Assembly: GCA_031213475.1 (NCBI GenBank)
Contig: JARUPZ010000010.1
Coordinates: 10,773,917 to 10,837,916 of the forward strand
From: Nereocystis luetkeana
Taxonomy: Eukaryota > Sar > Phaeophyceae > Laminariales > Laminariaceae
Direction: 5' to 3'
DNA length: 64,000 nucleotides
Shown one piece after another: positions 3,044 through 63,830 of this stretch; the first letter of the stretch is position 1, and every line of letters starts with the position of its first letter. Under the pieces are notes generated by a model that did no database searches, was not told where the DNA came from, and worked only from the letters and a program-made list of their open reading frames with translations. Made by a program: the position numbers and the translations under genes.

Positions 3044-4861
3044 TCGCGAAACCTCCTCGTGCTGGTGCAGTTCCAAGTCGTTCATATTTGGTCGAGTTAC
3101 TTTAGGTGCGGCAACGTGTGTTGGCATGGCTAGGCCATGGTCTGAAAATATCAAAACCGTAAAATATCATAACGGTTTTTGTTTTTTTAGTTCTACCTAA
3201 CAAAACCCAACTCCACGAGAGTACTCGCAGGCAGAAGGTGCCTGTCCACAGCGACCTTCGGGCCGTGTCCCTAAGATAGGTAGCAGGTGATATTGTCAGG
3301 CCCACCCTCCTATTGATGATGGGACGGGGAAGTAGGAGAAGCTCAGCTGTAGATGTCGTACGGCCGTATGAATAGTAGCGGTGGCACCTGCTACGAGAAG
3401 CTGGACACATGACTGTCAAAGGTTGTAGTTTTTTGGCTTCAAATTATGGCGAATTTCGAGTTGGGGAACCAGGAGCAACACAACAAAATCGAGTACGTGC
3501 ACAAAGGGTTCAAGGGTTATACCGACAAGCCGAGCGTACAGCGACGCTAATCCTTGCTTCTTGTGCCCTACTGCTGCCTCTGTTGTTGCTGCCGCCGCCC
3601 CGTCTGCTGCTGCTGCTAACGCATTTTTTTCTTACGAGAATGCACCCAAACGTCACGGATACGACCTCGTACGTACGTAGATGTTCGTTCGTGATGGTTC
3701 AGCACAGCAATCTGTATTCACCCGGCATCATGATGCATACGTTACGATGTTGAGAAAAATAGGCTCAGATCGGCACGAACAATAAGAAACTCACCTAAAC
3801 AGCAGTAGTGGGGAATACTCCAAATCCTATACCTGGTACCAGGTACAAGAGAGATACGTACAGACCAAGAAAAAAATACCAGGCAAGACATTGATTTGAA
3901 TACGATCGTGGACAATTCTTACTTACGCCCGCTGTCCTGCAGGCATATACTGAGGTCGCGCCGCATTACTTTAGCGTGAATGTTTCGTAATGAGATGATA
4001 CCACAGATACCCAAAAGATATACACAGTTTACCTCGTACGTTCGTAGGTGTCAGAGGTTCACAACATAAAATGACAGCCGGAAAAAAAAACATCTGATTC
4101 ACCACAAATCGAGTAAAACAAAGATGGAACACGATGAACACACCTGTCTACTTCTTCGGGCAGCGGAGACTTCCGAGGAACGGCTGCAACAGCAGCAGAC
4201 ATGCCCTCGGCGCTGGGAACAGTCGATTTTATGGCAGATCCTCTGTCCTCATTGTGTTTGCATCTTCTGAAGAGGGTCGTCGCTTTATCTGTGTTTAACT
4301 TGTTGACCGCATCGGAAGATCGTGCTGATAGGAGGAGGCGGGTAAGGTCGACTCTGAGAGCATCAATTGCGGCCTCGGTCATCGCTCACAGGCTCAACGA
4401 GCGACGCCGGCCAAACCAAGTAAGCCTACGAGCACATCAGAGAGTCTACCCAACAATACTGCGTCGTCTTGGGAACCGGAGAGGTCGTACAGTGTACTCG
4501 TACTACGGCGGTTCGTTTGACTTGAACATCTTCCAATCTTGCAGCTTGATCTTGATCGTAAATTGTTTTTCGTTCGTATCTTGAAACGGCGAAAACAATG
4601 TACGCCTTCCTATCACATGAAAACCTCTACGTGTCCCCGATCCCCATTCCGAAATCCACGATATTCGACCAGGTTTTCTTTGGGAACCATCGCCGTTAGC
4701 GCCCAAGCTCGTGCACCCCTGGTGCGTCGCGTTGTCGACGATCTCAGACATCGAACGCGTTGCTCTATTGTAAATAGCTCCCTTGTGGCCAGCGACAGGC
4801 ACGAGGTCAATACAAGCCCTGCTGTGACTTCATTTTTGGTGTATTCCTGATCACAGCAGTC

Positions 4862-5362
4862 ATGATTCGCTCTGTAGCGACCCGAGCGGTCCTCATTTTT
4901 TTGTTGATTCTGTCACTGGTCCTGTCGAACGAGCGAACGGCCGTCAGCGCCGTGCCGACGTTCAATAGGACTATGGGCGAGATCCGGGTGGGAACGTGCG
5001 CGGGACTCAAGAAAAATGTGGAGATGGGCCTAGACATCACCATCGTGGTGAACGCCGACCTCATCTGCAGCGAGACGATAACGCTTTCTGCAGGACAAGA
5101 CGTGTCGATTGCCTCGATCTTTCCCCAGAAGCACCTCGTGATAATCGCGGAGGACTTCGCGGTACCCGACCCGTCGTCTGCCACCCTCATCGTCAACCCC
5201 CGGGGTGCCTCGCTGGTACTGGAGCAGCTCTCTTTCGCGAACGAGGCGGGGACCGTAGGATCTCCCGGTGCGGCCCGCGCAATTTGGAACTCAGGCAGTT
5301 TGAACGTAAACGGGTGCTCTTTCGTCAGCCTCAACTACGCCTCTGCCCAGGACGGAGGAGCG
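4862..5362 (+). CDS. Gene 1 exon 1: signal peptide and first beta-helix coils
   Basis: The ATG at 4862 opens a 167-codon frame beginning MIRSVATRAVLIFLL, a typical secretory leader. The frame runs to GACGGAGGAGCG before the donor GTGAGTGA at 5363; reading on hits a stop within a few codons. It ends with GGA, the start of a beta-helix repeat that is completed by IYSSS in the next exon, giving the motif GGAIY. That continuity strongly supports the junction. Confidence 0.85.
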
Positions 5363-38730: not shown

Positions 38731-39560
38731 TACCTGAGCCGTGCCGTGTCTCTATAGTGCGGTAGGGAGAGGGGGAGGGCGTGCTCATTCGTTGCTTGCC
38801 TTAATCATTTGACCGTTGACCATGCATCTACGGTGGGGTACAGTGCGGTACGGAGGGGGGTAGGTTTAGAGCCCAAAACTTTCTTTCTGGCCAACAAATG
38901 AGGAAGCAACCCACTATATTTTGCACCCTGTTATTTGTGTTCAACGGGGGTGTTGGGTATATAGCTTGCCGATGAGATTGATTTTTCATCGGGCTTCGGG
39001 TCCATTTATTTCTCGAACTCGAATTTATTTTGGGAGCCACGGTAGGTATTGTCGAGCTCCCCGTGTACAAGGGAGCCTGAAAAAATGGCGACCTAAAGAA
39101 TTTCGTTTCTATCTGTCTTTGGGCGGGTCATGGCTTGCTTTACCTCTGCCGCTGTACGTTATAGAGAAGGCAAGATTGCGTCCCATGCATATGATTGATA
39201 TGAGTACGGATGGATGTATTACTGTTGACACCTGTCTCTTGTGTAGTAGATTGCTACGTCTATCATATCAATAGAGAAGAGAATGCACGTAGTGCAACTT
39301 CTTGCGATTGTATGGTAACTGGTCCTTTGGCCGTTTTTTCCCGTGTGCTCATGTGGACCCAACAACCACAGCGCAGCAAACATCTGCCGCGTCTCTTGCA
39401 CCTGTCTGGTACACACATACCAGTGTACCGATACACGTTCACCTATACGAGCTACCAGAGCTACGAGGCGTATTGCATGCAGTGGTTTTATCAGCGTGAT
39501 AACCAAGCGCCCCCCCTCCCCCGCCCATTTAAAAAATATATATATATATTATATTTCATA

Positions 39561-40055
39561 TAGGTTGGGTTGGCGTCGGTAGGCAACGACACTGTAAAAC
39601 ATGCCGCTCACTACGTGCGCTAGACAACCAGGGTACCGCTTTTTTTCTTGGCGGTCGGTTACAGCTGGTGGTCGAGTTAGATCATTTGTGCGAGGTGAAG
39701 AACCTCTACTCCGCACAAGGGGAATGCTCGTATCACGTAGTGTTCATGGTGAGGCACCCAAGAGGCAACTTCATTGTACTCCCATTGCTGTCGCTGGAAG
39801 TGGCTACACCGGAAAATAAATTAACTCATTGAACCTGTCATACATATGCAAGTCCGCCTCACAGGCGGTTCTTAGTAGGATGCAGCTCACCCTTCATGCG
39901 ACTCACCGGACACCTCACGGCGCTTCGCGCTTGGTGCAAGCAATGCCTGCGTGGTCGGTAAACAGCCGACATACTCCGTCCCGGCATTGTAAGGATGCCG
40001 GTCATGCGTGAGATCGAGTATATCTCTCCGATTGAGTACCCCCCGCCCCCCTGGT
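39561..40055 (+). mobile_element. Poly(C)-tailed retroposon-like repeat, copy 2 (long)
   Basis: About 495 bp starting AGGTTGGGTTGGCGTCGG after an AT-rich stretch and ending GAGTACCCCCCGCCCCCC. It matches the minus-strand copy at 54685-55230 over its full length (GAACCTCTACTCCGCACAAGG, ATCACGTAGTGT, GAGGCACCCA). The GTCTATGGCCATACGACTACG segment seen in other copies is partly deleted here. Confidence 0.75.
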
Positions 40056-42589: not shown

Positions 42590-42920
42590 CAGCTCAACTC
42601 TCGGGAGTTTATGATACTTTCAGCGACCTTCTGGAAATGCCTACGCCCGAAATTAAATCAACTCATTGAAGCTGTCATCCATATGTAAGTCCGCCTCAAA
42701 AGCGGTTCTTAGTAGGATGCAGCTTACCCTTCATGCAACTCGCCGGATACCTCACGGTGCTTCGCGCTTGGTACAAGCAATGTCTGCCTGGTCGGTGAAA
42801 ACCCGACATGCTCCGTCCCGGCATTGTAGTGATGCGAGGGTCTATGGCCATACGACTACGGCCATGCATGCGATCGTGTACATATCTCATATCGAGTACA
42901 CCCCTCCCCCCCTCCCCCCG
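42590..42920 (+). mobile_element. Poly(C)-tailed retroposon-like repeat, copy 3
   Basis: It enters the family consensus near CTGGAAATGCCTACGCCCGA and runs to GAGTACACCCCTCCCCCC. It carries the GTCTATGGCCATACGACTAC hairpin segment intact. Confidence 0.82.
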
Positions 42921-47189: not shown

Positions 47190-47440
47190 CGTTGAAGCGG
47201 TCATCCATATGCAAGTCCGCCTCGCAAGCGGTTCCTAGTAGGATGCAGCTCACCCTTCATGCGACTCGCCAAACACCTCACGGCGCTTCGCGCTTGGTGC
47301 AACCAATGTCTGCCTGGTCGGTGAAAACCCGACATGCTCCGTCCCGGCATTGTAGGGATGCGAGGGTCCATGGTCATACGAATACGGCCATGCGTGAGAT
47401 CGAGTACATCTCTCCTATCGAGTCCCCCCCCCCCCCGACC
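47190..47440 (+). mobile_element. Poly(C)-tailed retroposon-like repeat, copy 4
   Basis: It begins near GAAGCGGTCATCCATATG and ends in a C-run (about 47426-47438). A second partial unit (GGTCCATGGTCGTATGACTT then C-rich) follows at 47452-47525, so the hairpin-plus-C end is duplicated here. Confidence 0.82.
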
Positions 47441-47642: not shown

Positions 47643-47842
47643 TTAGACACGGCGAGCGTACGAGAGAAACACAGCGTCTTTGGTCAGCACCGCGGTGGAG
47701 TCGACGGTCTTGACCAGCAGGTCACTGTAAATGCGCCAAGTGTCGCCTTCCATCCGCATACACGCGTAGTAGTGGCCGCTCTGCGCGCTCGCATTCCCAC
47801 TCGTGTGGTGCATGACCCCCTGCAGGTCGTACTTGGCGTCGA
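47643..47842 (-). CDS. Gene 2 exon 15: USP His/Asp boxes and stop
   Basis: The exon starts after TTTGCTCCAG with TC, which completes a Val codon begun in exon 14, and ends at TAA. It contains DAKYDLQGVMHHTSG, SAQSGHYYACMRM and TWRIYSDLLV, then the terminal FLSYARRV. Tyr-Asp-Leu, Gly-His-Tyr and Trp..Asp match the last two conserved USP boxes. Confidence 0.9.
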
Positions 47843-50800
47843 CTGGAGCAAAGTACGGTGGATCGACGGGCGACGCGGGGCGTAGTAGGTGGTAAGGGAA
47901 TGTAGCATCACTCGTAAAACGACCATGCGTCAACGGAGAGGCCATAGGATGCGAAACACAAGGCTACAATATCGTGCTCTGACCTTTGTCGTCGGTGAAC
48001 TCTCCCATGTTGAGTTCGAGGGGGATGTCCACCTTGTGGGTGAGTTTGATGGATGTACCCTTAGCCCTGTGGGCGGCAACGGCAGGAACAAACACGCGTG
48101 CATACAAGAGGGCGGTTGGTCGCTGTGACGGCAGGCGGCTCCAGCATACGAATTACCTTCTACTGTTAGGATGTCGATAGGCCCCAGAGGGAGAATGGCA
48201 AGTGGCAAGTACACGGTACCAACAGGACATGGCTGATCGTCGGAGTGTGAATTTCCTGGTACTGGCTAGACGGTTACCTGGCGTACAAGCACGATGTTAG
48301 CAGCCCATCATACGAAACAAGGTGATCGAGCCTACTATTAATAGCATGTCTGTGAAAATCGAAGAAAACTGACTTCCCGTCGCTCACGTATTCCTATCCT
48401 TGTGCCGTGCCAGCCGCGCTATAGCCCAGACGCCAAAGCCCCAAGGGCTGTCGGCTGTGTCTGACTACCTCATCTGTTGGCGTGCCCCTGTGTACGGGCA
48501 GGGTGAACATTCTCCACTTCTCCACCTCCCCCCGGCACACAGGGCATGTACGCCACTTCGCGCAAGCGATCAAACTATTATTTCATGGCACTACAGTACC
48601 CGAAGAGTGGCGTCGCTTTAACATTTCCTCATGCCGCCGTTCGACTAGCAGCGTGTAACACGAAAAACAGACTTTGAGCCCCGCCTGCAAGCTCCTGCTT
48701 TGGTCTTGACGGCAGGAAGTATACCACAACAAGTGCGGTAAACACACGTGTAACCGACTTCCTGCGCTACCGGGATTTGTGTCTGGACCTCGCAGCATCG
48801 CGATGGCATTTCTTGCACTGCCCTTCACTCACTGGTCGAAGTAGGCCCGCCCAAGCTGCAGGAACAGCTGGGTGGGCAATTGGGTGATTGTGTCTTTCCC
48901 AGTCAACTTGTGGGGGGCCACCTGAGGTCAGCGCCAACGAAGCAAGTCCCACGTGCGGAAGCATTAGTTTCATTGTAGATTCGGTGAGTACGGCATCTTA
49001 CAAATAGCAAATAATCCCGGTTGGGGATCTGGTAAATCGAGGTCCGACCCCAGCCCACGATATTGGCTGTACTTCCGTCCGAGAATAACTGCTGGGGAAG
49101 CCTAGCGCAGCCCCTTAGGGCGCATTAGGCACCCACGGTCCTTGGCGGCTGCTCAGTATTTTCGCTCACCATGTGCCTTTAAAACAGCGCCACCCAAACG
49201 CACCTTTGCTTACACGCGAAAAAAAAACACCGTGGGCTACCGCATATGCAGGCGTGCGGGACGGACAACGACCGACCAGCCTCTTGAACAGAACGCTTTG
49301 CAAAAGAGAGCTACTGGATCGTACTGACTCATTCGCTTCCTCTTCTACGTCTCTGCACGGAAGCCATCGGCCGAAAGCCAGCATAGAGGATAGTTGTATA
49401 ATACATTCTATCACATTTTGCCTAAGGAGCTCCAACTTGTTGTAAAATACCTTGTCCCCGTTGCAGCCCGTGCATGACCTGGACTGCTCCTTGGACTCAA
49501 AGACCTTGAAATGCAGGGTTCAGCACGGGAGGACGGACAGCATTAAACAATCATGCACGAGGAAAAACGTTCTGATGCAGAAACCTCTGAACCAACCGGC
49601 GCAAGCAGGACCCATCGCCGCTGCAGAAACCAAGACCGTCTGCGCCAGTGTGAAGGAAAGTGTGGCAAGAGCATGGGATGCTGCAACAGCTCCGAATTTT
49701 GGTCACAGTTCGTAGTCCAATAAATAGTCCTGCGAGGGCGACACTGCTGCACATAACTAAACACTACCAGATATATCTTCTCTCTGCTTCTCGATGTATG
49801 GTCTGTCCTTGCTCATACCGCACCTTTCGAAGTAGGCCAGGTACACTAGGTGCCGAAGTTTCTCCTGCTCCTCTTCCTCCTGCCCCTGCCCCAGCACCAC
49901 TTCCGCCCCCTCCTTTCCCTCTTCTTTTTCTACCTTTTTTCCCTCCTCCTCCTCCTCCTCCACCTCCTCCACTTCCTTTTCCTCCTCCTCCTGCTCCTCC
50001 CTTGCTCAGCGGCTCCATGGGCAGGTTGAGGATGTTGAAGGATTCAGGATCGTCTTGCTTCGCCTGGTCTCGACACACACGAAAACAATCGACAAGGTCG
50101 GTGGATGCGATACGACTAGACTTTGCCAGCGAAAAGGCGGCAGTGTGCCTTAAGGTTGGATGTTCATAAGGCCTGCACTGTCAGCAACGTCTGATCGAGG
50201 GTGTAACCGATGACGGGATCCCGCTGCGATTCAATACCCACCCAACCATTCGAATCGGCCGCCCACGTTGTTAAATAGGCGGCTCAAGCAAGCACGGATA
50301 ACAAAAGCTATACCGTTGGACTCTGTCACGACGTCGGCTTACACGTACATAGTACCGGGTGGATGGTGACATCCCTTCCCGAACGACCTACATGTACGGT
50401 GCGGATGCCCTCTTCGACTTTGTTGCCTACTTTCTGTAGAACACGTCCACAATGATACGTTGCAGCAGTACGCGAGGCCGTGGGTCAAACGCCCAAGAAT
50501 CATACTTAAAAGGGTGCGTCCGAGTATGACATACCTTACTGCTCTATGACGCAAGCAATGGTGAGCTATCAACACTACTGACTGCACGCCCGCATGGTAA
50601 GCAGCGCAGTGAGAAACACGGTGTGTTGCCCACTCACCCAGCCGTGGGCACACTCGTAACGCGACCTCGTCTTGCCCGTGGCTGCCTCTACTGCAGGCTT
50701 CGTAGTGGCAACCTTGATAAAAAAAGGGGCAGGGCTCACGGAAATTAGTGCCAGGAAGGAGGGCAGCCGGTCGGTTCTTTCTACGGCGCTTGCACGCGCC

Positions 50801-53800
50801 CTGAAGAAAAAATCATAGAAGACTTCACACACATACTCTAAGGGCGAAAGTCGGGGCGCAGCAGAACGGCGGTCTGGTCTACGCGTGGTGTAGGGCTTTC
50901 TCAGGCTATGCTCGTGCTACAGACGGGGCAGAAAAAACATCCGCCAGGTTTTAATTCAGAGGGTCTTGAAGCTCAACAAGCTCAAGTGACACCGTCCGGT
51001 TCACTCACCTCAGACAGGGCGTTGAGGAGGGCACCCATTACCTCGGCGGCGTCAGCTTGCCCGCCGTTCTTAAGCTGTGTAGTTGGGTATTCGCGCGAGG
51101 GACAAAGACGGGGGTATGTGGTACGTTCAGGCATGGCCGGCTGTACCGTGGGTCTCATCGATCTTATACTGCTACAGCTAGTTCGAGGCATTTCCCTGCC
51201 CGTCACGTTTGCAAGCGAGGCGACGAGATAGTCACACGGTGGGTGCGACAGGTATTGAAACTTACGAAAAGGCACGAAACGAGACTGTTTGGAGCAACTC
51301 CCTCTCTGTCTTCCTGCTCGCCCCTCATCCGATGCAAGCACGTAAAAGAAAAGGGCGCGAGCCTGAGTACCCCAGGGAAATACTGCAATCAACTCCAAGA
51401 CACGATACGTTCAGTCCTGCGCTCCTGACAAGGCTGCGGACAAGGTGAAACAAACCCTGACCGTACAGTTACAGCAGTCAAATAAGCGGAGTAACGAGCT
51501 CGCGTAGATAACATACCACCCTGCACCGCAGGAAACGCCCGGTCTCACCGCATGCACGTTCGTCAGGAACATCTTCACGAACTCGTAGGTAAATCCTGCT
51601 CCAGGTAATTGCAATTGCAAGGTCTGACCGCAGTAGATCGGTCGACAAGCACCACAAACAGCACACGACGCTCGAGGGTTGGACGTTGCTGAGGTAATGT
51701 AAACATGTCTATCACGCCAGCAGGGCAGACACACTGGCATACATACGGTGCCCCCGCTCGTGTTGATCCCGACAAGAGAAAGTGCGACGCACCGAGGTAG
51801 CCTGAGCCTTTCGACAACACCCGCTTCCGCCCCAATGTCCACCCAGTGACAGAAAAGGGACACACGATAGGGTGCCCGGCAGGGAAGGGTTAAGGCTACT
51901 GTAGACCATCGCAAGGGGAGCACCGGCTGGCAATCGCCCTCGACGATGCCTAGACCCGCTGACACACAACGGCGAAAACTCGTTTTAAGATGGGGGGCAG
52001 CTGACAAAACGCGCAGAGGCACGAGTTGTACCTGGATCAGGGTGCCAAGAAAGGAGGCCACGTCGTGCGGGACCTCCTCCCTTCCAACCGTAGGGTGCCC
52101 TGAAGCCATTCCACAGATACAATGCCGAGGCAAGGCAAGGCAAGACAAACGGCAGGGAAAGGGGTGCGGTCAATACCTCACGCGTCGGAACACATACAGT
52201 ATGCGCGGAAGCGCCACGCCTACATGACTACCACACGCTACTCGATACCAATACGCCAGACATATTTGTGTAGGGGTTGTATAACGAGAAGATGGACCAA
52301 CACGGCGAACCCCATGCGCACGTGCAAACCTTTTCGTTCGTGCCCACTACTGCCCAACACCGAAGGATTTCCTGCCATCCTCTGCCGCATTGCCTGGATC
52401 GCTGCCAGTAGAGGATATCTGCGCTTGGCTTTTTCTGAACCAACTCACACCATGCTCCCCAGCGAAACGGGCAGGACGCAATCGACCAAGACTCTACATA
52501 CAAACAGGCAGCGCGGCCCTTGATTCACCTCCTTCGAAACCACTCGCACCATGATATCAGTAGAATACAACGCAGGACCAACGACCATCAGCACCTTTGC
52601 GGGGCAGCATCCATCGTGCAGCATCGCGCTGCACCACTTCCTCGTCCCGTCGCATCTTCGACTCGGAAACGAGCTGCCGAAAGAGTCCCCAGTGCCTCAA
52701 GAACTGGATGCTCGAGTTGAGCGAGCACATGTTACCGATGTTCAAGAGGCCCCTGACGTGTACGCATTCGCACGCAGAGAAAGAAACACGAATATAGCAG
52801 ACACGTGAACACAGCGCTTGTGGTTATATTATGCTGGTATATATTTATTTTTATATTTATACATATTATATACCGCGGGAGGTTGTTGTACTCCCGGTTT
52901 TGCCCTAAGGCTAGTCGTACACGAAGACATCCGGCAACGACATATTTTTCGACCTAAGCACTCCCCGAGTATGGTGCTCATAAACCCCTCTCTGCACGTC
53001 AGTACAGCTACGCGGCTGTACAGCGAGGGAGCACCGTAGACGAGAATTTTGGCCGCCACTCACTGCGCGGAAATGTCGTCCTTGGATGCCTCCCCGATCA
53101 GGCCGCCCTGCAGAGAGAGGGCAGAAACATGGCGATGCGAAGCTATGGTTGGTACCGCTGGTGCCGGAGCATGCATTGCTGCTCTGATGCTGCTGCAGCT
53201 GCGTGGAAGTTGGATCTATGAAAAACATACGGGACTTGCTGTACCCCGCGCCGTGATCGAACTGCCGCTACATAGCGTCATGCTCTCCCTGCTCATACCC
53301 TGCTTCCTGCAGAAACAGCTCTGACGGTGGGCGTCTTTGTAGGACTAACTCCCTCCTGGACTTCCTTCCTCGGCCCATAGCACCAAGGGAGACACGGGCA
53401 ACTGTCGCTCGTACTATCGCGCAGTGGTAATTTTGCTTCGGTCGGAGCTATCACACTACTTGGAAGTACAAGTACTACACCACCTCACCTGGATGTTGGC
53501 AGCGTTCTCCGTAGCCGCCGCCAGCTCCACCTGCAAAGATTGCAATCTCTGCTGTGCCTCTTTGAGCTCACCCTTGGTCTCGCAAAGCTCCGCATCAAGA
53601 GCCTTGTCGTGAGTCTGCGCCTTGTCGCACTGTTGACGCAAGTCCGCCGAAGCACGTGTAGCGGCCGACAGCGACTTCCTCGTCTCGGCAAGCTCCGCGG
53701 TGAGCTTGTGCGATTCCCCCTGCAGACTCTGCCGCGTCGTCTCCAGGTTGGATCGCACCTGCACCAACTCCAGCTTCAGGTCGGCGCTCACCTTCGCGGC

Positions 53801-56490
53801 GGTCTCGGCCGCTGCGCTGGCCTCTTGATTCTCGCGGGTCATCTCAACCACGCGGGCCTGACGTAGTGAGCACGAGCGAGGAGGGGGGGGGGGGGCGCGG
53901 AGGGGTACCACTGTGCTCTGCTTTCCTGCACGTAGTGTCTGACCTGATCTTGCTGTGGACGTTTACCCATTCGCAGGACACGCTTCCTTCTGCGGAGCGA
54001 GGCCATACTTTTATCGTAACCACATACCTGGGGTATAAAACAATATAAAAGTACCTCGTACATACGTTGACTCGAACCGTCGACCGATGACAAATGCGAG
54101 AGGAGGGAGTGTAGTAAAAACAAAATACAGCTTTTTCAAGTTTGATGTGGTAGAAGGTAGAATGCCTTGGAGCGCTCGTCTAAACCAACCCGGACGATGC
54201 CCGTTTTGTAATGTTCCCGGCATTGAGGGCTGATTCACTCCCACTGTTTGCTCGATAGCGAGCAGGCCGGCGGTTCAATCTTCTTGGGTAGCAACTGGAA
54301 ATTCTAGCGCCCGAGCCCCTCTCAAGCAAGGTACCCTATCGATTTAATATTGAACCGTCACGGTGCATTACCTGCACACGAGTCAGCGTGACGTTTTCTT
54401 AAGCCGTATCACGAACGACCACGGTAAGAAACAAATATATATCAGCCATCACTGTAGCGTAGAGGTAGCCTACAATAGGTTTCGAGGCGAAGCCACAATA
54501 TCATATCGCCTCACCTCGAGGTTATCGTTACGCGTTTTTAACGCGTCCCTGTCGTTTCCCGCTTGGCACGCCGCCGCCCGTGCCTTTGCAGAGGCTTCTC
54601 GCGCGAACTTGCAGTCCTGGCGCGCGGCAGACAGTTCCGCCTTAACCCGATGGTGCTCAGTCAGGCGAGCCTCCTCCGCCCTCTGGGGGAGGGGAGGGGA
54701 CGGGGGAGGGGGGTGTACTCATTATCATTCATGGCCGTAGTCGTATGACCATAGACCATAGACCCTCGTAGTCCTACAATGCCGGGACGAAGCACGTCGG
54801 GTTGTCACCGGCCAGGCAGACATTGCTTGCACGAAGCGCGAAGCGCCTTGAGGCGTTGGGCGAGTCGCATGAAGGGTGAGCTGCATCCTACGAAGAACCG
54901 CTCTAGAGGCGGATTGTCTTGCATATGGATGACAGCATCAGTGAATTGATTTAATTTCGGGTGTGGCCAATTTCCAGAGACAGCAATGGGTTTACTATGT
55001 AACTCCCTCGTGGGTGCCTCGCCATATACACACTACGTGATACGATCATCACCCTTGTGCGGAGTAAAGGTTCTCCAACCCCCACAAAAACAATCTAACT
55101 TGACCGCCAGCCATGGTAACCTCCAAAAACAAAAAACAAAACAAAACGGTACCCTGGCTGGCTAGCTCACGCAGTGAGAGGCGTGCTTCACAGCGTCTTC
55201 GCCAACCGACGCCAACCCAACCTGGATGTAGATATATAATACGCATTTTTGTTTTTTAGGCATGCTGCTCTCCGGCGGCAGAGGGTTCTTCCTCGCGCTT
55301 TCGGCTGCGAGGCAAGCAAGGGGGCAGTGGGTACATTACGACGCATGCCTGGATCTGCGACTGGACAACCACAGTAGCTATTAATAGGTATGACACCAAT
55401 TCCTCCTGCCAAATATTCTTCCAGGTAGACGGACCCCGTTGTGATCATGAGGGTGCTTGGTGTCGGATGTGCGCCACCCGTCAAAGGGCTTAATGCAACA
55501 AATACGACAGCCGATTGGTGTGTCTTGCTGTTGCTGCTGTATGTCTGCTGCTGCTCCTACTACTTCTTCTGCTGAGGTTGAAAACCCATGTACTGCAAAG
55601 GGAGTGGTCGAGGGTGGCGGGCTATTTATGATTAAAAAAAAGCGGGGTTTTCCATGTCACCTACTCGGCTCGGCGAGGCGGAAAGCAATCCCTTGTTTTT
55701 AAGAGCCAACTCAGCGACGTTCAATTCACCGAGCACCGACACGGTGCTCGGTCGCACGCTCTCAGAAGCAGGGAATCGCAACGGGCAACAGCCAAAGAGC
55801 CAGGTCCATACTGCCTCTCGTCTCGCTGTACTGCCGGCACCGGGCATGGCCAACACTGCCCCTGCCTGGCTGGACATTGTACTTATACAAAAATGCCCGT
55901 ATGATACAACGAACACTTTCAACAAAACAAAAAAAATCCGCTGGTTTTTCTTTGCGTGGAAAATATCAACATTCTTGGAATTGCCCGCTTGTCCAGTTTT
56001 GGTTTTTATCAATACATTCAGCACCAGCTGCAGCAGCAGCAGCAGTAGATACAGCAGCAGCAATGAACGTCTGTTGAGCGTCATGTATGTTTCACCTAGC
56101 CCTTTGACGTACACCACACACCTCACACCGAGCACGTACGTGAGGACAAAACTTGCTCCCTCAGTCCGTCTACCTGGAGGAAATTGGGATCAGGTATCTT
56201 CTGTATTTGCAAGATATCATACTTATGGATAATGAGTTGCCCAGTCGCACGCTCTCAGCAGCAGGTAATTGAATCGGGCAAGAGCCACAGAGCCAGGCTC
56301 ATTCTGCCGCCCGTCTCCGTGTACCCCCCCTGTCTCGGTGTGCATCTGACATAGTAGTACGAGTAGTAGTTGCAGTAGTAAACTAGTGGTATTTGATAGT
56401 ATTGATAGTAGTACAGTAGTAGAAATGGTAAGAGGAGGGGGAGTAGGAGAGTGGTATTAATATAGTTGTTGCAGTATTCATAGTAGCAGC

Positions 56491-56522
<32 letters not shown>

Positions 56523-59500
56523 CATCGGTAGTAGGTAGTACTGTGCTGCCGTTGCCACGAGTCTGCTGCTGTAACCAATAGTAGACTAGACCGCTTTTGG
56601 CAGCCATTCACTTAAACGTAGAGAGAAACAGTTCAAGACAAGTGCAGATATGTTTTTCATGGTGCCCTCAATCGTGTGTAGACCTGTTGTTGCTGCCTAT
56701 TTTGTTGTTAATAGTGATGTTACTGCTGTAAAGTTCTACTGCTTTAGCCACAAGTTGGCTGTGCTGTTGTCGTGAGTACTTATTTGACAATCATTATTTT
56801 TCATTCATTACAAGTAAATGCAGATAGCTTTTTCATCGTGCCCCAACCGTACGTATGCCTGCATATCAATAAATATATACCCTGGTAAAGAGAAGCGGCT
56901 TCCTACGCTTAGTATTAATAATAGTGATGTTTTTCGTTATTTGGCCTTTCTGTGTTACTGACGCTGTTTTCGACACGCAGGAACACAATTCTGAAGTAGT
57001 TAGACCTATGCCAATGGTACAGCGAAGTTGCAATAAAAAGTTTGAATTTCAAAGATACCCGCCAAAACATTTCAGAACACGCTTCCTGTGGGCCACCTAA
57101 AAAAAAAAAAAAGTTCCTAACTTTTGGAAAAGCCCGAAAAAAGCAAATCTGGGGCCGATGTTGGGCCAACATCGGCTTGAGAAAAACTCAGGCCGATCTT
57201 TGGTTCGAAGCGGCGAGATTCCGAGTCCTCGACAGACATCGATCAACAAAACCAACGATTGCGTCACGAATTCTGAACGGAGTGCGCTCGTTAGGGGCTC
57301 CGACCCACCCTAGGGTCATCGTCTTCACACCATGGCCGGCGTCATGTAGCGGGAGCTGACCAGGCGTGTGATAAAAAACATTTGGCCGCTGGTTTGCACA
57401 AGACAGAAGACAACACTTCTCCATCCGTCTCGAATGGCAAAAAATACACTTGTTTTCAGGTTTGGGAGGATACCGTACGACGCCGCCGGCAAGCTCTCGC
57501 CCCCTAGACCATGGATCCGCCTGATATCTTCGAGGCCGTCATCTATACTCGTTGGGCTTGCCAGATACCGAGTGGGTTGGCCGTGGGCTGAGTCTATGTC
57601 GAGATCGAGGGTCGATCGTCGCAACAGCTGGTTTCGATCACCGTGTGGACAATTTGCGACCAGAAAACACACAAATTGCGCCGCCTGCAGCCGTTGGGGG
57701 GAAAAAAAAGAAAAAATCAACATTTTCCTCTTTTTTCCCCACAGCGGCGGTACGAGAAAATTTCCGGCTGTTTTTTTAAAGCCATATATTTGAAAAAAAA
57801 CTTTTCAACTTCGCGTTTCCATTGGCATAGGTCTTAGTAGAGTATATACAATTGTAGTTGGAATACTCATATTAATAGTAGCCCATGGTACCGAGCGCAT
57901 GCTGCTTCTCTATTAGTGCCTGTCCAATAGCAGTATCGGACCACCTTGCTATAAGTAGTAGCAATAGTCGTAGTTGTTGTGGTGTCCGCTATTGCTATTG
58001 TTGTCGTCTGCGTGCTGTTCTTCTACCTGGCCAATAGCAGTAGATGCCCTCAACCGTATTCAATACCTGGTAGGTAGCCTGTACATTTACACATATTAAA
58101 AGTATAGTCATAGTAGTAGGTACTACTACTGTAGTGAAAGATGTACTCATGCTGCTTCTACCTGTATAAAGGATCTACGTACTACTGGCAGTGGTGTATA
58201 GTGTAACAAAGTAGAGTAGTCATGCCCCAACCCACCCACGGTACCACGTGGTTACTTGCTGTCTGTATTGTATGAGCGCGTGTTCATTCTCTAGCAGTAA
58301 ACTGTACCACTATAGGTGTAAACATAAGGACCGTTTATACATTAATAAGAAGAGCAAACAGTCCTTATGTTTACGCTCAGAGTGGTAATACTTAGTAGTA
58401 TAGATAGCGGTCAGTAGTAGTAGTGTACCAGGTATTTAATACCAAATACCTGGTATTATTTTGTAGAGTGCATGCTCCTTCTGCCTGTATTACATCTGCG
58501 CAGTAGTGGTAGTGCTGTATAGTAACAATACATATAGTAGCAACCCATGGTGCCGAATGCATGTAATGTAGCAATTACCACAGAAATAGTAGTACTCAGT
58601 CCCTGATGACTGCTATTACTCTTTCCTTTGAGCAATACGCTAACCCATGGCTCACGTTTCCGCCAAGAACTATACGTGCGTCACCTGTGACACCTTTTTC
58701 GCCTTGCGACGCCCCCGGGATTTGACGTTACCTACATCCCTAGTATATATATACCAGAGATATGATGTAGGGGTAGGCGGGAGGAGAGCAGTGCATGATA
58801 TGTGCCGTGCACCGAATGCCAAGGTCTCGGGCTGACTAGAAATAGTAGAGCGAATGTACAACTGGCTGGTACTGCACCGTTGTACAAGTACTATTGTAGA
58901 CTCTACCGTACTGTTAAAGGGTGTGAATGGGTTCGTTTAAGTACGTAAGGAAAAATAAAGGAGGTCGCATGGTCGTTATCTGGGGAAAAAAATCTTTTTA
59001 GGAAATTAACCAATCCGTGAGTAGGAAAAAAACTTTGCCACCGAATAACCCGTTCTATGATGCTGCCTCTTAAAAATGAAATAAAAAGCAGTGCCGGTAT
59101 CGATGATGTGGCGTTGAGCTATAGCTGAAAAAAAGTCAGCCTTGCTTTTTGCACGACACGTGCTGAAGGACAGCGCACAACCAAGCCCAGAGCGTGGAGC
59201 ATCAGCGTAGACAAGGACGCGCGAGCGTGAACGAATCGCACGTTCCTGGGGAGGCCTTGGGATTGGCGACCGGTACGTGGCACGAGAAAGCTGTCCCCCG
59301 CTGTGATACACATCTTCTTGTACAGATCAAATCGCAGTATGTGGTCCTGTTTTACTGCTGTTGGGCACTTCTGAACAAGAAGAACATACCTACACACAGC
59401 ATCAACAATCGGCTGCGGCTTGCTATACTGCAAGTCGCCGAGACCGGGATTTAGACGGCGCTGCCTTCACCTTCGTGGCAGCGCGCCCCACCTCTAGCAC

Positions 59501-62500
59501 ACGGGCATGTTGTTGCTGTACGTGCAGCTAGGCTTGAGCCTTGCGGCCAAGACAGCATTCACCACGCGCCTGAACTCTGCATGGCGCTGCTGTATGTACT
59601 CGTACGTACCTACGACTCTGTCCGGAAAAGTAAAAAACAGCTCATCTTCATATTTATGATTAGACCATTCCTATATTTCCGGACAGGGTGGTACGATAGA
59701 GTATTTTTACTCGATCGTTTTCTCACGTGAGACAAATATAGTGACTTTTCCGTAGGGGGTCAATTCGTGCAACAGATTTCATGTCGGCTACTTGTCGGCT
59801 TCAGGGTGCGTCTTAACCCCCCCCAGAGAGCATTGGAACGAACCGAATGGAATATTATTTGCCGCATGAATTGGTGTTGGTTGGTTGTGGGAAACGAATA
59901 GATTCAGTGCAGCCCGAGAAAAACAGTATATCTAGGAAGAGGAAGAAGTGCTGCACCCCTTTTTCTTGTTTGGGAGGACCGAACGGCCCGACCGAACGGG
60001 AACAAATAGCAGATTATTTGATGTAGATGGACACCGCCGAAGATGGATGTGGACACCAATTTGCTTTGGTATGTGCAAAGCATACCGTTCGTGCCGATTT
60101 GGCAGGCTAGGCCCAGGATTCTGCATGGACCCAAGCACGTTTATTTAGGTATGAACGGAACGAATGACCACGAACAGCCGCGTTCCGTTCCGCTCGTTCC
60201 CATGCTCTTTGGCGGGAGTTAAGACACGCCCTCATCAGTCGCAGATTGTATTGCTGTGTGCGCAAATCCCTGCCGCATCCGTTGAATGGTTTAGATTTTC
60301 GAGTAGAGTCCAATAGTTCTTCCCTAGAGAGAAAGATACGAATACAACCTGAAAAATCGAGTTGTCCCGCGTATTTCCACCATAATTAACGGAACAAAAA
60401 TCTGCAGATCAAAACACAACGAGCCAGTCGATCATTCTCCATAGATTGGAGGTGTCTGTCGAGCTTTATAATCCAATTCATTTCCCGTGTCGAGAAATCA
60501 GGTGTTCGGTGCCACCCGTGAATGTAGTCTGAAACCAAGTAAAATAGGGTGGTGACAGACTATTTTCATTTTGGTTTTACATATCCTCGAATAGACTGGA
60601 CATTTATTCACGTCTAAAACGAATCCATTCCATGCCTAACTGTTACCATGCATGTATCTGCATGTTCCTTTCCTGATGCCTGGTGTACACCTCGTACCAG
60701 AGCATTCAATCTAGCCTAATAGCCCCCGCTCTCCTAGCGGTACCGTATCCCCAACGCTGCCCCCACTTCAGTAGTAATAGTGTTGCCCCTTGCTCACCGC
60801 CATCTGCGCCGCGTAGTCTTCCTCAACCATCCTCAGGTGGTTGGCGCTTCGACATTTCTGGTGGTCATTGGCCATGGCCACGCTCGCAGCGCACTGCTGT
60901 GCTGTCACCCAGACATGCTGCGTCTGTTGGCCGGAGAAAACGCGGATATTCGGTGTTTGGTGTCGTTGGCGGCACCACACAGCGCAAATGGGTCTACTCG
61001 GCATTTCGTACTAGTATGCTGTTATTCTTCTACCCGAAGCATATACGTACGTACCAGTTATATACTCTATCAATGGTGTGTTCAGTAGGGTGTATGATAG
61101 GGTCAAGCGGGTGGGTCGTATAGCCGAGACTACAAAACGGTCCGGAATATTTTACTGGAACTCCAGATCAATAACAAGATCGTACTCTAGGTACAGTATA
61201 TTACACCGGATTGATCCTTGAGCTGCAGCACCCGAGTGACATCATCGACAAGCATACTGGAGAGTGGCAATGCGTCATGTGACGTAACATGTACCCGTTG
61301 TTATGTTCTACCGGGAAGATAACGAGTGAATACCCAGGTGAGTACCCGGCCACCCCTGGGTACCTCAAAAGTATACCTGGTAGTCTCGTCCTCACCTTTT
61401 TCCTGCCATCGAATATATACTGTATACATATATATTATATATATATATATATATATACCATTGGGTGTTACGCTGAGCGGCCTTCTAGACAAGCCGTGGT
61501 GACAGGTCACAGGCGTCTTCCCTTCCCCCCCCCGGCACATTCTACTTCATATTAACCATACGACTAGGGTTCAGTATTTTGCACTGCTCGTTGATTTTGA
61601 GGCACTTTGCCCACTCACACGATCCATATGTAGTACATCGTGCTTTCAGCGACCGGAGAAAAGCCCCAGGAAAATGCCTATTGCAACTACTACACCAACG
61701 CGCAGAGCTTCCAACACCCGCGCCACCTCTGGGTAGAAACAAGTATGTACAGTACTGTGAATACGAGTACCTCGTACTTGTTAACGTAAGCACGTACTTT
61801 TGTATACCTGATATAATCCTGGGCATTGTACCTATGATAGGAATAGTACTGTACTTCGTACTGTATTTCGTATTGTATTTCGTACGCATTACACCTCAAC
61901 TACTTTAGGCTACAGCTGTCTTGTTCCACCTATAATAATAGTATAAACTGATGTACCGGTGTAATACGTATTTGCATACATATCGCAAGTGTCTCCTGGT
62001 CTGTGTCTGGTGGAGTCCCCAAGGGCGCTACAGTAGCACTTTCCAACCACTCACCACCATCTCCAAATCACCAAAGTCGACATTGGAGGGCTCGGGCCTG
62101 GCGTGGATGGTGGCGGGGGGGGCTGCCACGAGGTTAATGGCCTTGTCCATGACGCTGTCGGTGGGGGCCACGCCCTGCACGAATACCGCAATACACAGAG
62201 CCACACAACCAGCAGCAATAAAAACCACCGTCGGCGCCCAGCTTGCCGCTGATTGCGGCGGCCCTGTCATCATGTGGCCGGCCGTGATGCCCATCCGTGC
62301 CTCGCGAAGGCCATCGTCCTGAATTTTTCGAATGTCAGTTGTCCGCGGCGGCGGTTCAACGCAAATCAATCCACCGCATTTTACGATGTTTGCTTTTTTC
62401 GAAAGAATGGTAGGGTTATCAATAGTATGGTATCCAATGTATTATCATTGTCAGTTAATATAGCCTCTGTAGGGTTTGCAGGGGGTACTGCTGCACAGAC

Positions 62501-63262
62501 AGGTATGAATACATGGCATCCGACTGGCTCAATCTCGAGAACACTACACGGTCGGGTATGTCACGCCAGTAAAGGGATCGAGGAGCAGCCTGAAACACAA
62601 CGAAATTACACGAAGATGAATGGGGAAAAACTGACAAACCCTACCCTTGTGTTGGACTATGTGCGATAAGAACGAAATACCGAGGGGGGGGACAAGTGAC
62701 CACACACCAATTACCTGTGACCGCGGCTTGTCCAGAAGGCCGCTGAGTAAGGGTACACGCGAGTCAAGCTGGCAAATAAACGCCGAGACAAAACACAAAA
62801 GTCACACAGTACACAGGATACGCTTGCTTGGTACGGTCTTGTACAACACGAGGTATCGGTAAGCACCATACGCACCACGAAAACGTCTTCAGAGAGGGCA
62901 AACTATCGCATTCATTCCTCGTTGCTCACCGACTCTGCCCGAAGGAGGTCTCCCTTCTTCTCGCGCTCGCTGTACGATCTGGCGCGCACAACGTGCTTGT
63001 TGTTGGTGAGTCGCGTTAGGTTCACACCCTCCATCAGGAGGTGGAACCTGTTGTCGCGGGCAGCCTCCGCGTTTGGCCGCTTCTCAAGTGCCGCCGCGCC
63101 GTCGCTGAGGCCACCCGGCGGGGCGGCACCGACTTCCTGACCACCTACCACGCCGACCAAGGCAGCCACAGACACGACTGCCGGAAGCAACCATCGACGC
63201 CTCCCCCGCCGAGCGTCTCGGCTCTTGAGTCCTGGGGATATATGAATGTAAACAGACGACAA
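47643..63262 (-). CDS. Membrane-linked coiled-coil ubiquitin-specific protease (USP, C19), 15 exons
   Basis: Fifteen minus-strand exons (63262-62930, 62318-62055, 60896-60798, 54682-54515, 53857-53489, 53107-53064, 52752-52595, 51595-51549, 51074-51009, 50712-50638, 50063-49824, 49504-49451, 48921-48833, 48066-47984, 47842-47643) have compatible phases and give about 762 codons plus TAA. Hydrophobic segments lie at about 22-42 and 139-160, and a coiled coil at about 233-411. The USP domain has the Cys box GLLNIGNMCSLNSS (Cys about 435), NGGQADAAEV, one zinc pair CTGC, QLPTQLFLQL, KVDIPLEL and the His box SGHYYAC (His about 720) with YSD (Asp about 737). USPs cleave ubiquitin from proteins, and all three catalytic residues are present. 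The upstream exons are linked only by strand and phase; they could belong to a separate gene, and further exons may lie in 54683-60797. Confidence 0.85.
47984..48066 (-). CDS. Gene 2 exon 14: USP region before the His box
   Basis: 83 nt between acceptor GCCGCCCACAG and donor GTCAGAG (a weak donor). Its first base completes Gln with exon 13. It encodes AKGTSIKLTHKVDIPLELNM, which matches the USP segment K(x)n V-x-(F/I)-P-x-x-L before YDL. Confidence 0.85.
48833..48921 (-). CDS. Gene 2 exon 13: USP LP-box
   Basis: The exon runs from acceptor GCTGACCTCAG to donor GTGAGTGAAG. It encodes VAPHKLTGKDTITQLPTQLF then LQLGRAYFD. In most USPs this reads LPxxLxLxLKRFxxD. Here Gly-Arg-Ala-Tyr-Phe replaces Lys-Arg-Phe, a conservative variant of the box. 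Confidence 0.88.
49451..49504 (-). CDS. Gene 2 exon 12: USP zinc-pair exon
   Basis: A small 18-codon exon, phase 0 at both ends, after CATTTCAAG and before GTATTTTAC. It reads VFESKEQSRSCTGCNGDK. CTGC is the second CxxC pair of the USP zinc ribbon. Confidence 0.82.
49824..50063 (-). CDS. Gene 2 exon 11: USP strand plus Gly-rich basic insert
   Basis: 80 codons, phase 0 at both ends, after GTGTGTCGAGACCAG and before GTGCGGTATG. It starts AKQDDPESFNILNLPMEPL, which matches the USP stretch E-x-F-x-x-L-x-L-P. About 50 residues of Gly with a basic core (KKGRKRRGK) follow, then TSAPSVPGLLRK. The insert sits between the zinc pairs, a place where USPs often carry insertions. The donor is less certain than most because GTGCGG is not a strong match. 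Confidence 0.78.
50638..50712 (-). CDS. Gene 2 exon 10: USP first zinc-pair region
   Basis: 25 codons, phase 0, preceded by a strong pyrimidine tract (CCCCTTTTTTTATCAAG) and followed by GTGAGTGGGC. It ends GKTRSRYECAHGW. The expected Cys-x-x-Cys is Cys-Ala-His-Gly, so the first zinc pair is incomplete. His may substitute, or the zinc site may be lost, as in several USPs. Confidence 0.8.
51009..51074 (-). CDS. Gene 2 exon 9: USP QxDA box
   Basis: 22 codons, phase 0, between AACTACACAG and GTGAGTGAAC. It encodes LKNGGQADAAEVMGALLNAL then SE. It matches the conserved Q-x-D-A-x-E(F/V)-(x)n-LL segment following the Cys box. Confidence 0.88.
51549..51595 (-). CDS. Gene 2 exon 8: USP segment after the Cys box
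   Basis: A 47-nt exon between TGGAGCAG and GTGAGACC. It starts with GA, completing a Gly codon with exon 7, and ends in phase 0. It encodes FTYEFVKMFLTNVHA, a helix typical of the spacer between the Cys and QxDA boxes. Confidence 0.82.
52595..52752 (-). CDS. Gene 2 exon 7: USP Cys box
   Basis: 158 nt between CACGTCAG and GTGCTGATGG. It encodes GLLNIGNMCSLNSSIQFLRH, the catalytic Cys box, then the helix LFRQLVSESKMRRDEE. Canonical USPs read G-L-x-N-L-G-N-T-C-Y-x-N-S. Here Met and Ser flank the Cys, an unusual but tolerable variation. Confidence 0.9.
53064..53107 (-). CDS. Gene 2 exon 6: linker
   Basis: A 44-nt exon after the strong acceptor CTCTCTCTGCAG and before GTGAGTGGCG. It starts in phase 0 and ends with two bases, exactly what exon 7 needs. 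It encodes GGLIGEASKDDISA. No domain. Confidence 0.75.
53489..53857 (-). CDS. Gene 2 exon 5: main coiled coil
   Basis: 123 codons, phase 0, between TCACTACGTCAG and GTGAGGTGG. It is rich in Ala, Glu, Gln, Leu and Lys with heptad-like Leu spacing (DLKLELVQVRSNLETTRQSL, ELAETRKSLSAATRASADL, ELKEAQQRLQSLQVELAAA). No Pro or Gly breaks the helix. It probably mediates dimerisation or partner binding. Confidence 0.85.
54515..54682 (-). CDS. Gene 2 exon 4: coiled coil
   Basis: 56 codons without Met, phase 0 at both ends, between a C-rich acceptor (CCTCCCCTCCCCCAG) and donor GTGAGGCG. It encodes RAEEARLTEHHRVKAELSAA, then further Ala/Arg/Glu-rich helix ending RNDNLE. It continues the helical pattern of exon 5. 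Its acceptor tract is the tail of the poly(C) repeat at 54685-55230. Confidence 0.75.
54685..55230 (-). mobile_element. Poly(C)-tailed retroposon-like repeat, copy 5 (long, minus strand)
   Basis: Near full-length copy in the sense orientation of gene 2, aligning with 39561-40055. Its C-rich tail (G-rich on plus, 54685-54713) directly abuts the AG of exon 4 and forms the pyrimidine tract of that splice site. Confidence 0.8.
56340..56530. repeat. TAG/GTA trinucleotide-rich region
   Basis: Interrupted (TAG)n, with the purest run at about 56491-56522. It lies within a gene 2 intron. Confidence 0.85.
57003..57833 (-). mobile_element. PIF/Harbinger-like element with conserved ORF, copy 2
   Basis: An 831-bp element in the reverse orientation to copy 1, with GACCTATGCCAATGG and CCATTGGCATAGGTC ends. 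TTA flanks both sides (57000-57002 and 57834-57836). Sequence identity with 18291-19118 runs from end to end. It lies in a long intron of gene 2. Confidence 0.88.
57188..57723 (-). pseudogene. ORF of the Harbinger-like element, frameshifted copy
   Basis: It encodes the same unidentified protein as 18500-18937, but a T-run near 57373 has six instead of seven bases. That splits it into two overlapping frames (57325-57723 and 57188-57424). Other changes are mostly single residues. Confidence 0.65.
58305..58387. repeat. Foldback with TACCACT and TGTAAACATAAGGAC arms
   Basis: TACCACT..TGTAAACATAAGGAC and GTCCTTATGTTTAC..AGTGGTA form an 83-bp hairpin around an AT-rich loop. It is MITE-like, with no second copy recognised. 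Confidence 0.75.
58426..58455. repeat. TACCAGGTA/TACCTGGTA hairpin
   Basis: TACCAGGTATTTAATACC faces AAATACCTGGTA, giving a perfect 12-bp stem (TACCAGGTATTT with AAATACCTGGTA). It is one of 15 exact TACC(A/T)GGTA words in the window. Confidence 0.7.
59471..59527 (-). CDS. Candidate extra gene 2 coiled-coil exon
   Basis: 57 nt, phase 0 at both ends, between GGCTCAAGCCTAG and GTGAAGGCAG. It reads LHVQQQHARVLEVGRAATK, which is helix-like and would fit between exons 3 and 4 without disturbing the frame. A still smaller candidate (59563-59589, QRHAEFRRV) lies just upstream. Splice signals are weak, so it is left out of the 762-codon count. Confidence 0.3.
59618..59686. repeat. Foldback with CTGTCCGGAAA termini
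   Basis: CTGTCCGGAAA (59618-59628) and TTTCCGGACAG (59676-59686) are perfect 11-bp inverted repeats bounding 69 bp. It resembles a very short MITE. Confidence 0.7.
60798..60896 (-). CDS. Gene 2 exon 3: helical segment
   Basis: 33 codons, phase 0, between GGTGACAGCACAG and GTGAGCAAGG (strong donor). It encodes QCAASVAMANDHQKCRSANH then LRMVEEDYAAQMA. This is Ala-rich helix like exons 4 and 5, but the evidence rests on splice signals and composition. Confidence 0.6.
61430..61456. repeat. (AT)n microsatellite
   Basis: ATATATTATATATATATATA in a gene 2 intron. Confidence 0.9.
62055..62318 (-). CDS. Gene 2 exon 2: transmembrane segment
   Basis: 88 codons, phase 0, between CGAAAAATTCAG and GTGAGTGG. 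It starts DDGLREARMGITAGHMM, has a strong hydrophobic stretch APTVVFIAAGCVALCIAVFV, and ends FGDLEMV. A 20-residue uncharged stretch of this kind is very likely a membrane helix. Confidence 0.75.
62930..63262 (-). CDS. Gene 2 exon 1: N-terminus with signal anchor
   Basis: 111 codons from the ATG at 63262 to the donor GTGAGCAACG. Arg-rich SRDARRGRRRW precedes LLPAVVSVAALVGVVGG, a typical signal anchor or cleavable leader. It continues to EGVNLTRLTNNKHVV. An AG (ATATATCCCCAG) lies inside the start of this frame, so the exon might instead begin there and be spliced to an exon outside the window. Confidence 0.65.
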
Positions 63263-63389
63263 TCACAAACGGTGTGGACGCGATATCTGCAAGTAGTGTG
63301 GTGGTGTACGGCCGTTACAGAGCTCACTCCGGGGTCCCGAATTTGTCTCAGCACGCGTCCTGCGTCCTGTTGCGCGCATCGCTCTACGT

Positions 63390-63830
63390 CTACCGATACT
63401 GCTACTACTATTGCTGCTAGTACCACTGCTACTGCTACTATTAATACTACCACTACTACTGCTACTACAAATACTACAGCTACTAACTACAACTACTACT
63501 CCTAGAACTACTATTCCTACTGCTACCAGCAGTACTACCACTGCTACTGCTGCTATTAATACTACTGCTGCTAACTGCAACTACTACTCCTAGAACTACT
63601 ACTCCTAGAACTACTACCATATAAGACTGCCACTACTACAACAACTAATACTGTACCAGTATACTACTACTATGAACTACACAAATACTCCTACTGCTAC
63701 TGCTACGTACTACGACTACAATGTTCTACAAGGGGTACTTCTCCTGCTACTACTGCTGCTGCTACTACTACTGCTACTACTATGTACTACAACTAGTACT
63801 CCTACTGCTACAAATACTACTACAATCGAT
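63390..63830. repeat. CTA/CTG triplet-rich region upstream of gene 2
   Basis: About 440 bp of interrupted (TAC)n and (TGC)n. The phrase TGCTGCTATTAATACTAC-like and CTACTCCTAGAACTACTA repeats indicate local duplication. It covers the expected promoter side of gene 2. The remaining 63831-64000 shows nothing I recognise. Confidence 0.8.

Follow-up and report, generated by a model that had tools for sequence, protein, structure and literature searches.

A probable membrane-anchored ubiquitin-specific protease gene in an array of copies in Nereocystis luetkeana, with an inverted-repeat satellite beside it

A 64-kb window of the Nereocystis luetkeana genome (C10:10773917–10837916; 465 Mb in 1987 contigs) raises two questions: whether a single gene joins two membrane segments, a coiled coil, and a ubiquitin-specific protease (USP) domain, and what its many copies signify. 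A preliminary description had proposed the first from window positions 47643–63262; the array of copies and the hairpin satellite beside it lie outside the stretch it covered. In our judgment the locus is probably an intact nuclear gene for a membrane-anchored USP-type deubiquitinase, one of about 22 copies. Sequence, copy number, module linkage, open frames, and, in the copies read, purifying selection on the USP exons are all shown by the data. It is well supported that the gene is real, that about 22 near-identical copies exist, 20 of them in an array of about 1 Mb, and that amplification left the frames intact in the copies read.

Catalytic domain and copy array

The USP gene lies on the minus strand—an assignment absent from the preliminary finding—with exons between 63379 and 47643; all exon coordinates below are window positions on that strand. 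In-silico splicing yields 826 codons in phase without an inner stop. A search of the spliced protein for Pfam UCH (PF00443), proposed earlier as a check, returned a full-length match (profile 2–254 of 254; 109.6 bits, cut-off 23.9; E = 2.5e-31). The catalytic Cys (codon 52727–52725) lies in exon E9 (52595–52752), which the UCH match identifies, and the His (47774–47772), a Ser at the third triad position (47726–47724), and the stop lie in E18 (47643–47842), placed by alignments. The Cys and His boxes, GLLNIGNMC and GHYYACMR, and the Ser box are identical in 11/11 copies.

Copy number was counted exon by exon. The coiled-coil exon E7 (53489–53857; 123 codons with a heptad pattern) has 22 genomic matches at 95–100%: 20 on C10 (9.927–10.956 Mb) and one each on C250 and C454; within this genome it has no match outside this array at E ≤ 1e-5. 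E2 and E4, which carry the hydrophobic segments, have 21 array matches each, and the His-box exon E18 has 20 full-length array matches and one truncated. The C10 copies (16 plus, 4 minus) are spaced 43.8–58.8 kb in the plus block and 40.3–43.9 kb in the minus block. Modules E2, E4, E7, and E18 keep the same order and orientation in all 20, one with the truncated His-box match, at nearly constant distances; this agrees with the order membrane anchor–coiled coil–USP predicted in the preliminary description. Such co-duplication shows linkage of the modules, not a single transcript.

Eleven copies were compared base by base: the window and 10 of the 21 others. Three are incomplete—the C250 copy is present only from E6 on, and two copies lack E1 and half or more of E2—and these copies were checked without those exons. 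The exons checked contain no stop and no indel that breaks the frame, and splice dinucleotides are intact at every exon checked, with one exception taken up below. Variable sites number 70 over 2459 nt of exon and 970 over 13278 nt of intron; mean pairwise difference is 0.70% inside exons and 2.25% outside. Introns carry 108 indels, 83 of them not multiples of three; the only genuine exon indel spans 3 nt and keeps the frame, the two other gaps, both in E2, being ends of the sequence read. With the repeat-rich intron 5 excluded, 9.6 exon indels were expected and 1 was observed (P = 0.0007). The USP exons without E14 have a ratio of nonsynonymous to synonymous polymorphism (pN/pS) of 0.12 (13 synonymous, 5 nonsynonymous; P = 1e-5), and in the copies read they are under purifying selection.

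The array might instead be a neutral, satellite-like amplification of a gene-bearing segment, most of its copies unused. Units of 40–59 kb for about 16 kb of gene fit that account, as do the likeness of the copies (mean intron difference 2.25%) and one 28-kb spacer whose open reading frames, listed and compared with the window only, include no second clear gene. Two of the few control families (three: OTU, E2 enzymes, and DnaJ) point the same way: DnaJ (45 matches) has one trio about 56.6 kb apart (C2:8623419–8736802), similar in unit size, and the E2 enzymes (38 matches) have one pair about 73 kb apart on C11 and nothing array-like beyond. Against it stand purifying selection on between-copy differences in the USP exons and the presence of three USP arrays (22, 22, and 10 copies), with none for OTU and only the one E2-enzyme pair; we regard neutral amplification as unlikely. 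The other two USP arrays, found as relatives of the His box, comprise 22 copies on C29 (785921–1476096; 31–34 kb apart) and 10 on C20 (5712046–6302593; 44–56 kb apart, in two blocks separated by 196 kb). The OTU control gave 21 matches and no array, 12 of them equal-score dispersed copies. Clustering is also seen in EsV_1_7 matches, of which 150/150 scored among 1711 candidates match EsV_1_7_cys. The EsV_1_7 family is large in brown algae.

Two side observations concern these families. The two C20 blocks face opposite ways. The equal-score OTU matches, at 12 places on many contigs (e.g., C4:4087093–4087413), lie in frames of 1634–1669 residues in 11 of 12 cases and perhaps mark a transposon carrying a deubiquitinase-like domain.

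Gene model and the joining of anchor and protease

Membrane anchoring is likely, as predicted from two hydrophobic segments, which bears out this much of the earlier idea of tethering to an organelle or the secretory membrane; both stretches named in the preliminary description are present, with Kyte–Doolittle 19-residue maxima of 1.79 and 2.57. The first predicted transmembrane segment (TM1; residues 31–48, 63193–63140; WLLPAVVSVAALVGVVGG) lies in E2 (62930–63231) and the second (TM2; residues 164–183, 62237–62178; APTVVFIAAGCVALCIAVFV) in E4 (62055–62318). The N-terminus ahead of TM1 is strongly basic (13 Arg/Lys), and the loop between the segments spans about 115 residues (97 without E3), with one NLT sequon encoded in E2. 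The weaker stretch alone is not impressive, because 154 of the 2250 open intron windows of 48 codons score 1.6 or more, and 34 score 2.0 or more. Reading TM2 as an intron tract, with the acceptor at 62174, was rejected for its poorer splice score (top 27.4% versus 4.3% of AG). The coiled coil, put earlier at about 180 residues, is borne out for E5–E7 together, where 8 of 5000 shuffles had an equal heptad pattern, and only E7 is clear alone (6 of 5000; E6, 851; E5, 4534). The helical region matches one Pfam coiled-coil family below threshold (24.8 bits, cut-off 30.1), and its PDB matches do no better than E = 0.01. Outside the C10 region, the TM1 exon has a single homologue, on C15: at C15:9101450–9101900 an E2-like exon (RWLLLPVVLAAPLIGVVGGQQVGGA) is 65% alike over 45 residues, so the TM1 module is shared outside the array.

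The model places 19 exons, or 18 without the doubtful E3, in place of the 15 first counted, and they do splice in phase. The earlier upper edge, 63262, is only the end of an open frame, E2 using the acceptor at 63231; the end at 47643 is kept. E1 (63328–63379), a possible first exon with an ATG and the basic N-terminus, is one of three listed phase-fitting ATG exons, picked for its GTGAGC donor, and is present at 97–100% in the 7 copies read that contain the region. The gene start is uncertain and may lie beyond the window. E2 has a coding score of 0.32, where none of 312 open 100-codon intron windows exceeds −0.14, with its acceptor in the top 5.8% and its donor in the top 5.6%; its TM1 third alone scores low (−0.05). 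E3 (62715–62768; 54 nt, phase 0/0) has good-ranking sites (acceptor top 5.3%, donor top 2.2%) and a coding score within the intron range, and overlaps a dispersed repeat with copies at 61473–61533 and 2583–2617. E4, present in 21 array copies, has an acceptor in the top 4.3% of AG; its E4b part is strongly and its E4a part weakly coding. E5 (60798–60923; coding score 0.36, donor top 3.1%) begins the helical region, followed by the coiled-coil exons E6 (54515–54682; 56 codons, coding score 0.42) and E7, and E8 (53064–53107; phase 0/2), taken from the exon parse, links them to the USP domain.

Matching phases, also part of the preliminary description, hold only with a 22-nt micro-exon or with E11 shortened or skipped; otherwise E10 (52032–52099; phase 1/0, exon parse) and E11 (51549–51595; FTYEFVKMFLTNVHA; coding score and exon parse) differ by one base. 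The proposed micro-exon E10b (51667–51688; QRPTLER), one of ten listed phase-fitting candidates, was picked for its acceptor and because the 11 copies do not vary there; the 97 invariant nucleotides in which it lies (P about 9e-5) were chosen after the fact. Pfam is undecided, giving 109.6 bits with E10b, 105.9 with a short E11, and 110.2 with E11 omitted. Two other solutions were discarded: an E11 start at 51572 loses FTYEF and has a poor acceptor, and a sequencing error is disfavoured by the lack of any indel there among 11 copies. Downstream lie E12 (51009–51074; QADAAE box, exon parse), E13 (50638–50712; the zinc-finger half with ECAHGW, from paralogue comparison), E14 (49824–50063), E15 (49451–49504; CTGC, a model exon), and, both from the exon parse, E16 (48833–48921) and E17 (47984–48066).

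The Gly-rich basic insert noted earlier (50003–49863, in E14) has the better supported frame, though not a certain one, as a Glu-rich frame competes. The Gly frame requires no frame change and is open in 11/11 copies, whereas the Glu frame has a stop in copy c10312 and is disfavoured, without being fully settled; a C29 paralogue exon ends TSRTPSVVDLLHK where the Gly frame ends TSAPSVPGLLRK. Codon use favours the Glu frame (G+C at third codon positions 0.73 versus 0.17), as does the exon parse (48.1 versus −5.5), and in the Gly frame E14 has an intron-like codon score. Pfam does not separate the two (106.6 versus 105.9 bits), and pN/pS in E14 is 1.29, on 9 changes.

No open intron window of comparable length has as high a codon score as E2, E4b, E5, E6, or E7; E9, E13, E16, and E18 are just above the 95th percentile, E1 and E4a (TM2) at or just above it, and E3 below. 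The exon parse, a simple one with its codon model drawn from E6–E18, recovers E2, E3, and E4 at their assigned boundaries along with many USP exons, and is support, not proof.

These exons could also belong to two genes: a small protein with two membrane segments (E1–E4) and a coiled-coil USP (E5–E18), merely co-duplicated. The preliminary description had named a separate upstream gene for exons 1–3 as its refutation; E2 and E4 are co-ordered with E7 and E18 in 20/20 C10 copies, and the distances are near constant, yet co-duplication explains that too. E4 reads only a few codons on to a stop, an ATG lies inside E5 behind a weak acceptor, and the introns from E2 to E8 are all of phase 0, a pattern easily met by chance. 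Constraint, moreover, differs between E1–E8 and the USP half (Fisher P = 0.0035). The well-ranked donors that close E4 (top 1.9%) and E5 (top 3.1%) argue for joining, and the exon parse connects both parts, though via small filler exons. We judge two genes distinctly unlikely.

Several observations nevertheless weigh against a single intact anchored USP gene. pN/pS is 0.82 in E1–E8, not different from 1 (P = 0.59), and 0.99 in E1–E4, where no indel was found against 2.6 expected (P = 0.07); selection therefore does not prove the membrane exons coding, even with 20 variable sites in E1–E4 against 36 expected from introns (P = 0.002). The pN/pS contrast may mean that the catalytic domain is fixed while the anchor varies freely, or else that the anchor exons are of little importance. 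The acidic flank after TM2 contradicts the positive-inside rule for that segment. E1 scores only −2.9 in the exon parse, and the E5 acceptor ranks in the top 39.2% of AG, the parse preferring 60901 as the E5 start. The parse also shifts the start of E6, lengthens E13 (to 50583) and E15, takes the Glu-rich E14 frame, and adds many low-scoring filler exons. Among the copies, 10949440 has a truncated His box and c10865 has lost the E12 donor.

Other features of the window were recorded alongside the gene. A CTA/CTG-rich microsatellite (63384–63830) lies directly upstream of the presumed first exon. Intron 5 holds an 843-bp element (56997–57839) with terminal inverted repeats of about 37 bp, resembling a non-autonomous DNA transposon, and a 94.8% copy lies in opposite orientation at 18287–19121. 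A dispersed repeat family about 78–83% alike occurs at 54686–54978, 47193–47436, 42630–42870, 39530–39991, and 23868–24137, the first copy stopping 4 bases before E6. Plus-strand open frames at 4778–5374 and 28113–31633, none with a Pfam match, may be pieces of a single large gene for a secreted or membrane protein that has a hydrophobic segment and a tail rich in Gly and Arg. No tRNA and no Rfam family at gathering score turned up in the 64-kb window.

Relation to known anchored deubiquitinases

The Cys, QxDA, His, and Asp/Ser boxes are all present, as first described, but the set is not standard. The Cys box reads GNMCS, where printed solved USPs show GNTCY or GNTCF; the E13 box is CAHG, where two paralogues show CDCG or CSCG; and the third triad residue is Ser in place of Asn or Asp, which does not exclude USP membership, USP30 also having Ser. 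That Ser aligns with Asn in USP2 and USP21 and with Asp in USP46 and USP12, the best matches among solved structures (E from 2e-9 and 5e-9), which resemble this gene in the USP domain and differ at this position; the queries covered the catalytic part only. Among the paralogues read in this genome, those on C36, C20, and C29 carry Asn and that at C10:1992049 carries Asp, so the Ser looks derived here. Deubiquitinase activity is plausible, because USP30 has the same Cys–His–Ser triad. The patterns of one USP query matched nothing in viral contigs.

From these data we infer splicing, topology, activity, membrane, and coiled-coil function. The protein would run from a basic N-terminus through TM1, loop, TM2, and coiled coil to a USP domain with a Cys–His–Ser triad, which would share one face of the membrane, presumably the cytosolic one, with the N-terminus. 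The coiled coil may serve self-association or partner binding, and the enzyme would remove ubiquitin from proteins at its membrane, as USP30 and Ubp16 do at mitochondria. With about 22 copies, the cell may make much enzyme or many slightly different forms.

Three anchored or organellar USPs, cited here from extracts of their accounts, offer the closest comparison: human USP30, with a transmembrane segment N-terminal to the USP domain and a Cys–His–Ser triad (PMC8927814); yeast Ubp16, with an N-terminal outer-membrane anchor and termed a USP30 homologue (PMC9892010); and mitochondrial UBP27 of Arabidopsis (PMC5776116). An ortholog of these at the mitochondrial outer membrane would share with the gene an N-terminal membrane segment (by hydropathy) before the USP domain and, as in USP30, the third triad Ser. 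That Ser, however, looks derived and probably evolved separately, no USP30 occurs among 60 listed of 102 PDB matches, and USP30 as described in those extracts has neither a second membrane segment nor a coiled coil; orthology is very unlikely. Two hydrophobic segments, coiled coil, Gly-rich insert, and about 22 copies together set this gene apart from all three, and its architecture alone is a variant of anchored USPs, new in combination. In literature listings of at most 15 titles each, none concerned this gene or brown-algal arrays of USP genes. The remaining comparison, by description only, is with diatom ptDUP of SELMA, likewise a deubiquitinase, whose proposed site in related algae is a compartment enclosed by membrane (PMC5756292, PMC6610115; extracts). 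A periplastid enzyme of that kind, with TM1 as signal peptide and a transit-like peptide behind it, would suit the A/P/R-rich stretch after the hydrophobic segment and the proposed need for a deubiquitinase there (extract of PMC5756292), but is highly improbable, with a hydrophobic core beginning at residue 31 behind 13 Arg/Lys, unusual for a signal peptide, and an uncertain N-terminus assignment.

The hairpin satellite and its possible meaning

An E7–E9 query exposed dense exon-9 matches on both strands of C10 at 10.991–11.013 Mb. This satellite extends from 10991471 to 11012910, about 26 kb beyond the last array copy, and is adjoined by a broken relic of the USP gene whose pieces are 84–93% like the window. 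A 217-base arm query gave at least 87 matches: 41 plus arms (7 partial) and 41 minus arms in the satellite, and 5 array exon-9 copies (88%). Every plus arm abuts a minus arm, forming at least 41 inverted pairs with centres 471–558 bp apart. In the 2.5 kb of satellite read, the arm spans window 52588–52807 and thus includes the splice sites of E9 as well as the exon, which makes genomic DNA its source. The dimers, about 1075 bp long, agree at 99.7%, and the satellite is therefore recent or homogenised. The computed folding energy of one 417-nt pair is −376.6 kcal/mol; 100 shuffles average −142.4 (standard deviation 5.3), and none is as stable (z = −44.6). Three C29 exons used as one query revealed no hairpins at the C29 array.

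If hairpin transcripts were diced into small interfering RNAs (siRNAs), these would silence or cap the array of about 22 copies, as hairpin RNAs check selfish genes in Drosophila. This model is a bold inference, tentative and on balance doubtful; a plain inverted-repeat satellite is the sober alternative. In 3.55 kb of sampled satellite, each of 11 gene copies finds 8–28 of its 138 exon-9 21-mers exactly and 112–116 within 2 mismatches; the 21-mers of control exons are absent (E6 0/148, E18 0/180). The arms are only 85–88% like window exon 9, which weighs against RNA interference. We do not claim selection on the arm to keep its exon match: two arms gave inconsistent counts (134/158 exon versus 59/62 flank; 139/157 versus 43/50).

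Extracts of the brown-algal literature bear both ways. Ectocarpus has Dicer, Argonaute, and RDR homologues (PMC4513859), and it has just one Argonaute and a small-RNA population in which the 21-nt length is enriched (PMC12867755). The same Argonaute study, in extract, reports no specific transcript changes and favours translational regulation, a result that weighs against siRNA cleavage. In Drosophila, again by extract, the hairpin locus hp-CG4068 has 20 tandem hairpins in D. melanogaster, and hairpin RNAs of D. simulans suppress drive genes (PMC10317233; PMC10292708 by title). Like those loci, the satellite is a tandem series of inverted repeats that resemble the gene they derive from and could pair into long duplex RNA; it differs in its at least 41 units, its place near a gene array, and its brown-alga-like host.

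Anchored USPs decide which membrane proteins keep ubiquitin. A lineage in which a doubly anchored coiled-coil USP has reached about 22 copies would be a case of evolving dosage or diversification of deubiquitinases beyond the animals, plants, and fungi. Should siRNAs arise from the hairpins, the locus would join an amplified gene and its hairpin suppressor as a natural pair, in a multicellular lineage whose complexity arose independently; if that is true, then with three USP arrays it would point to recurrent deubiquitinase amplification under dosage or genetic conflict, which would be a theme new to brown algae.

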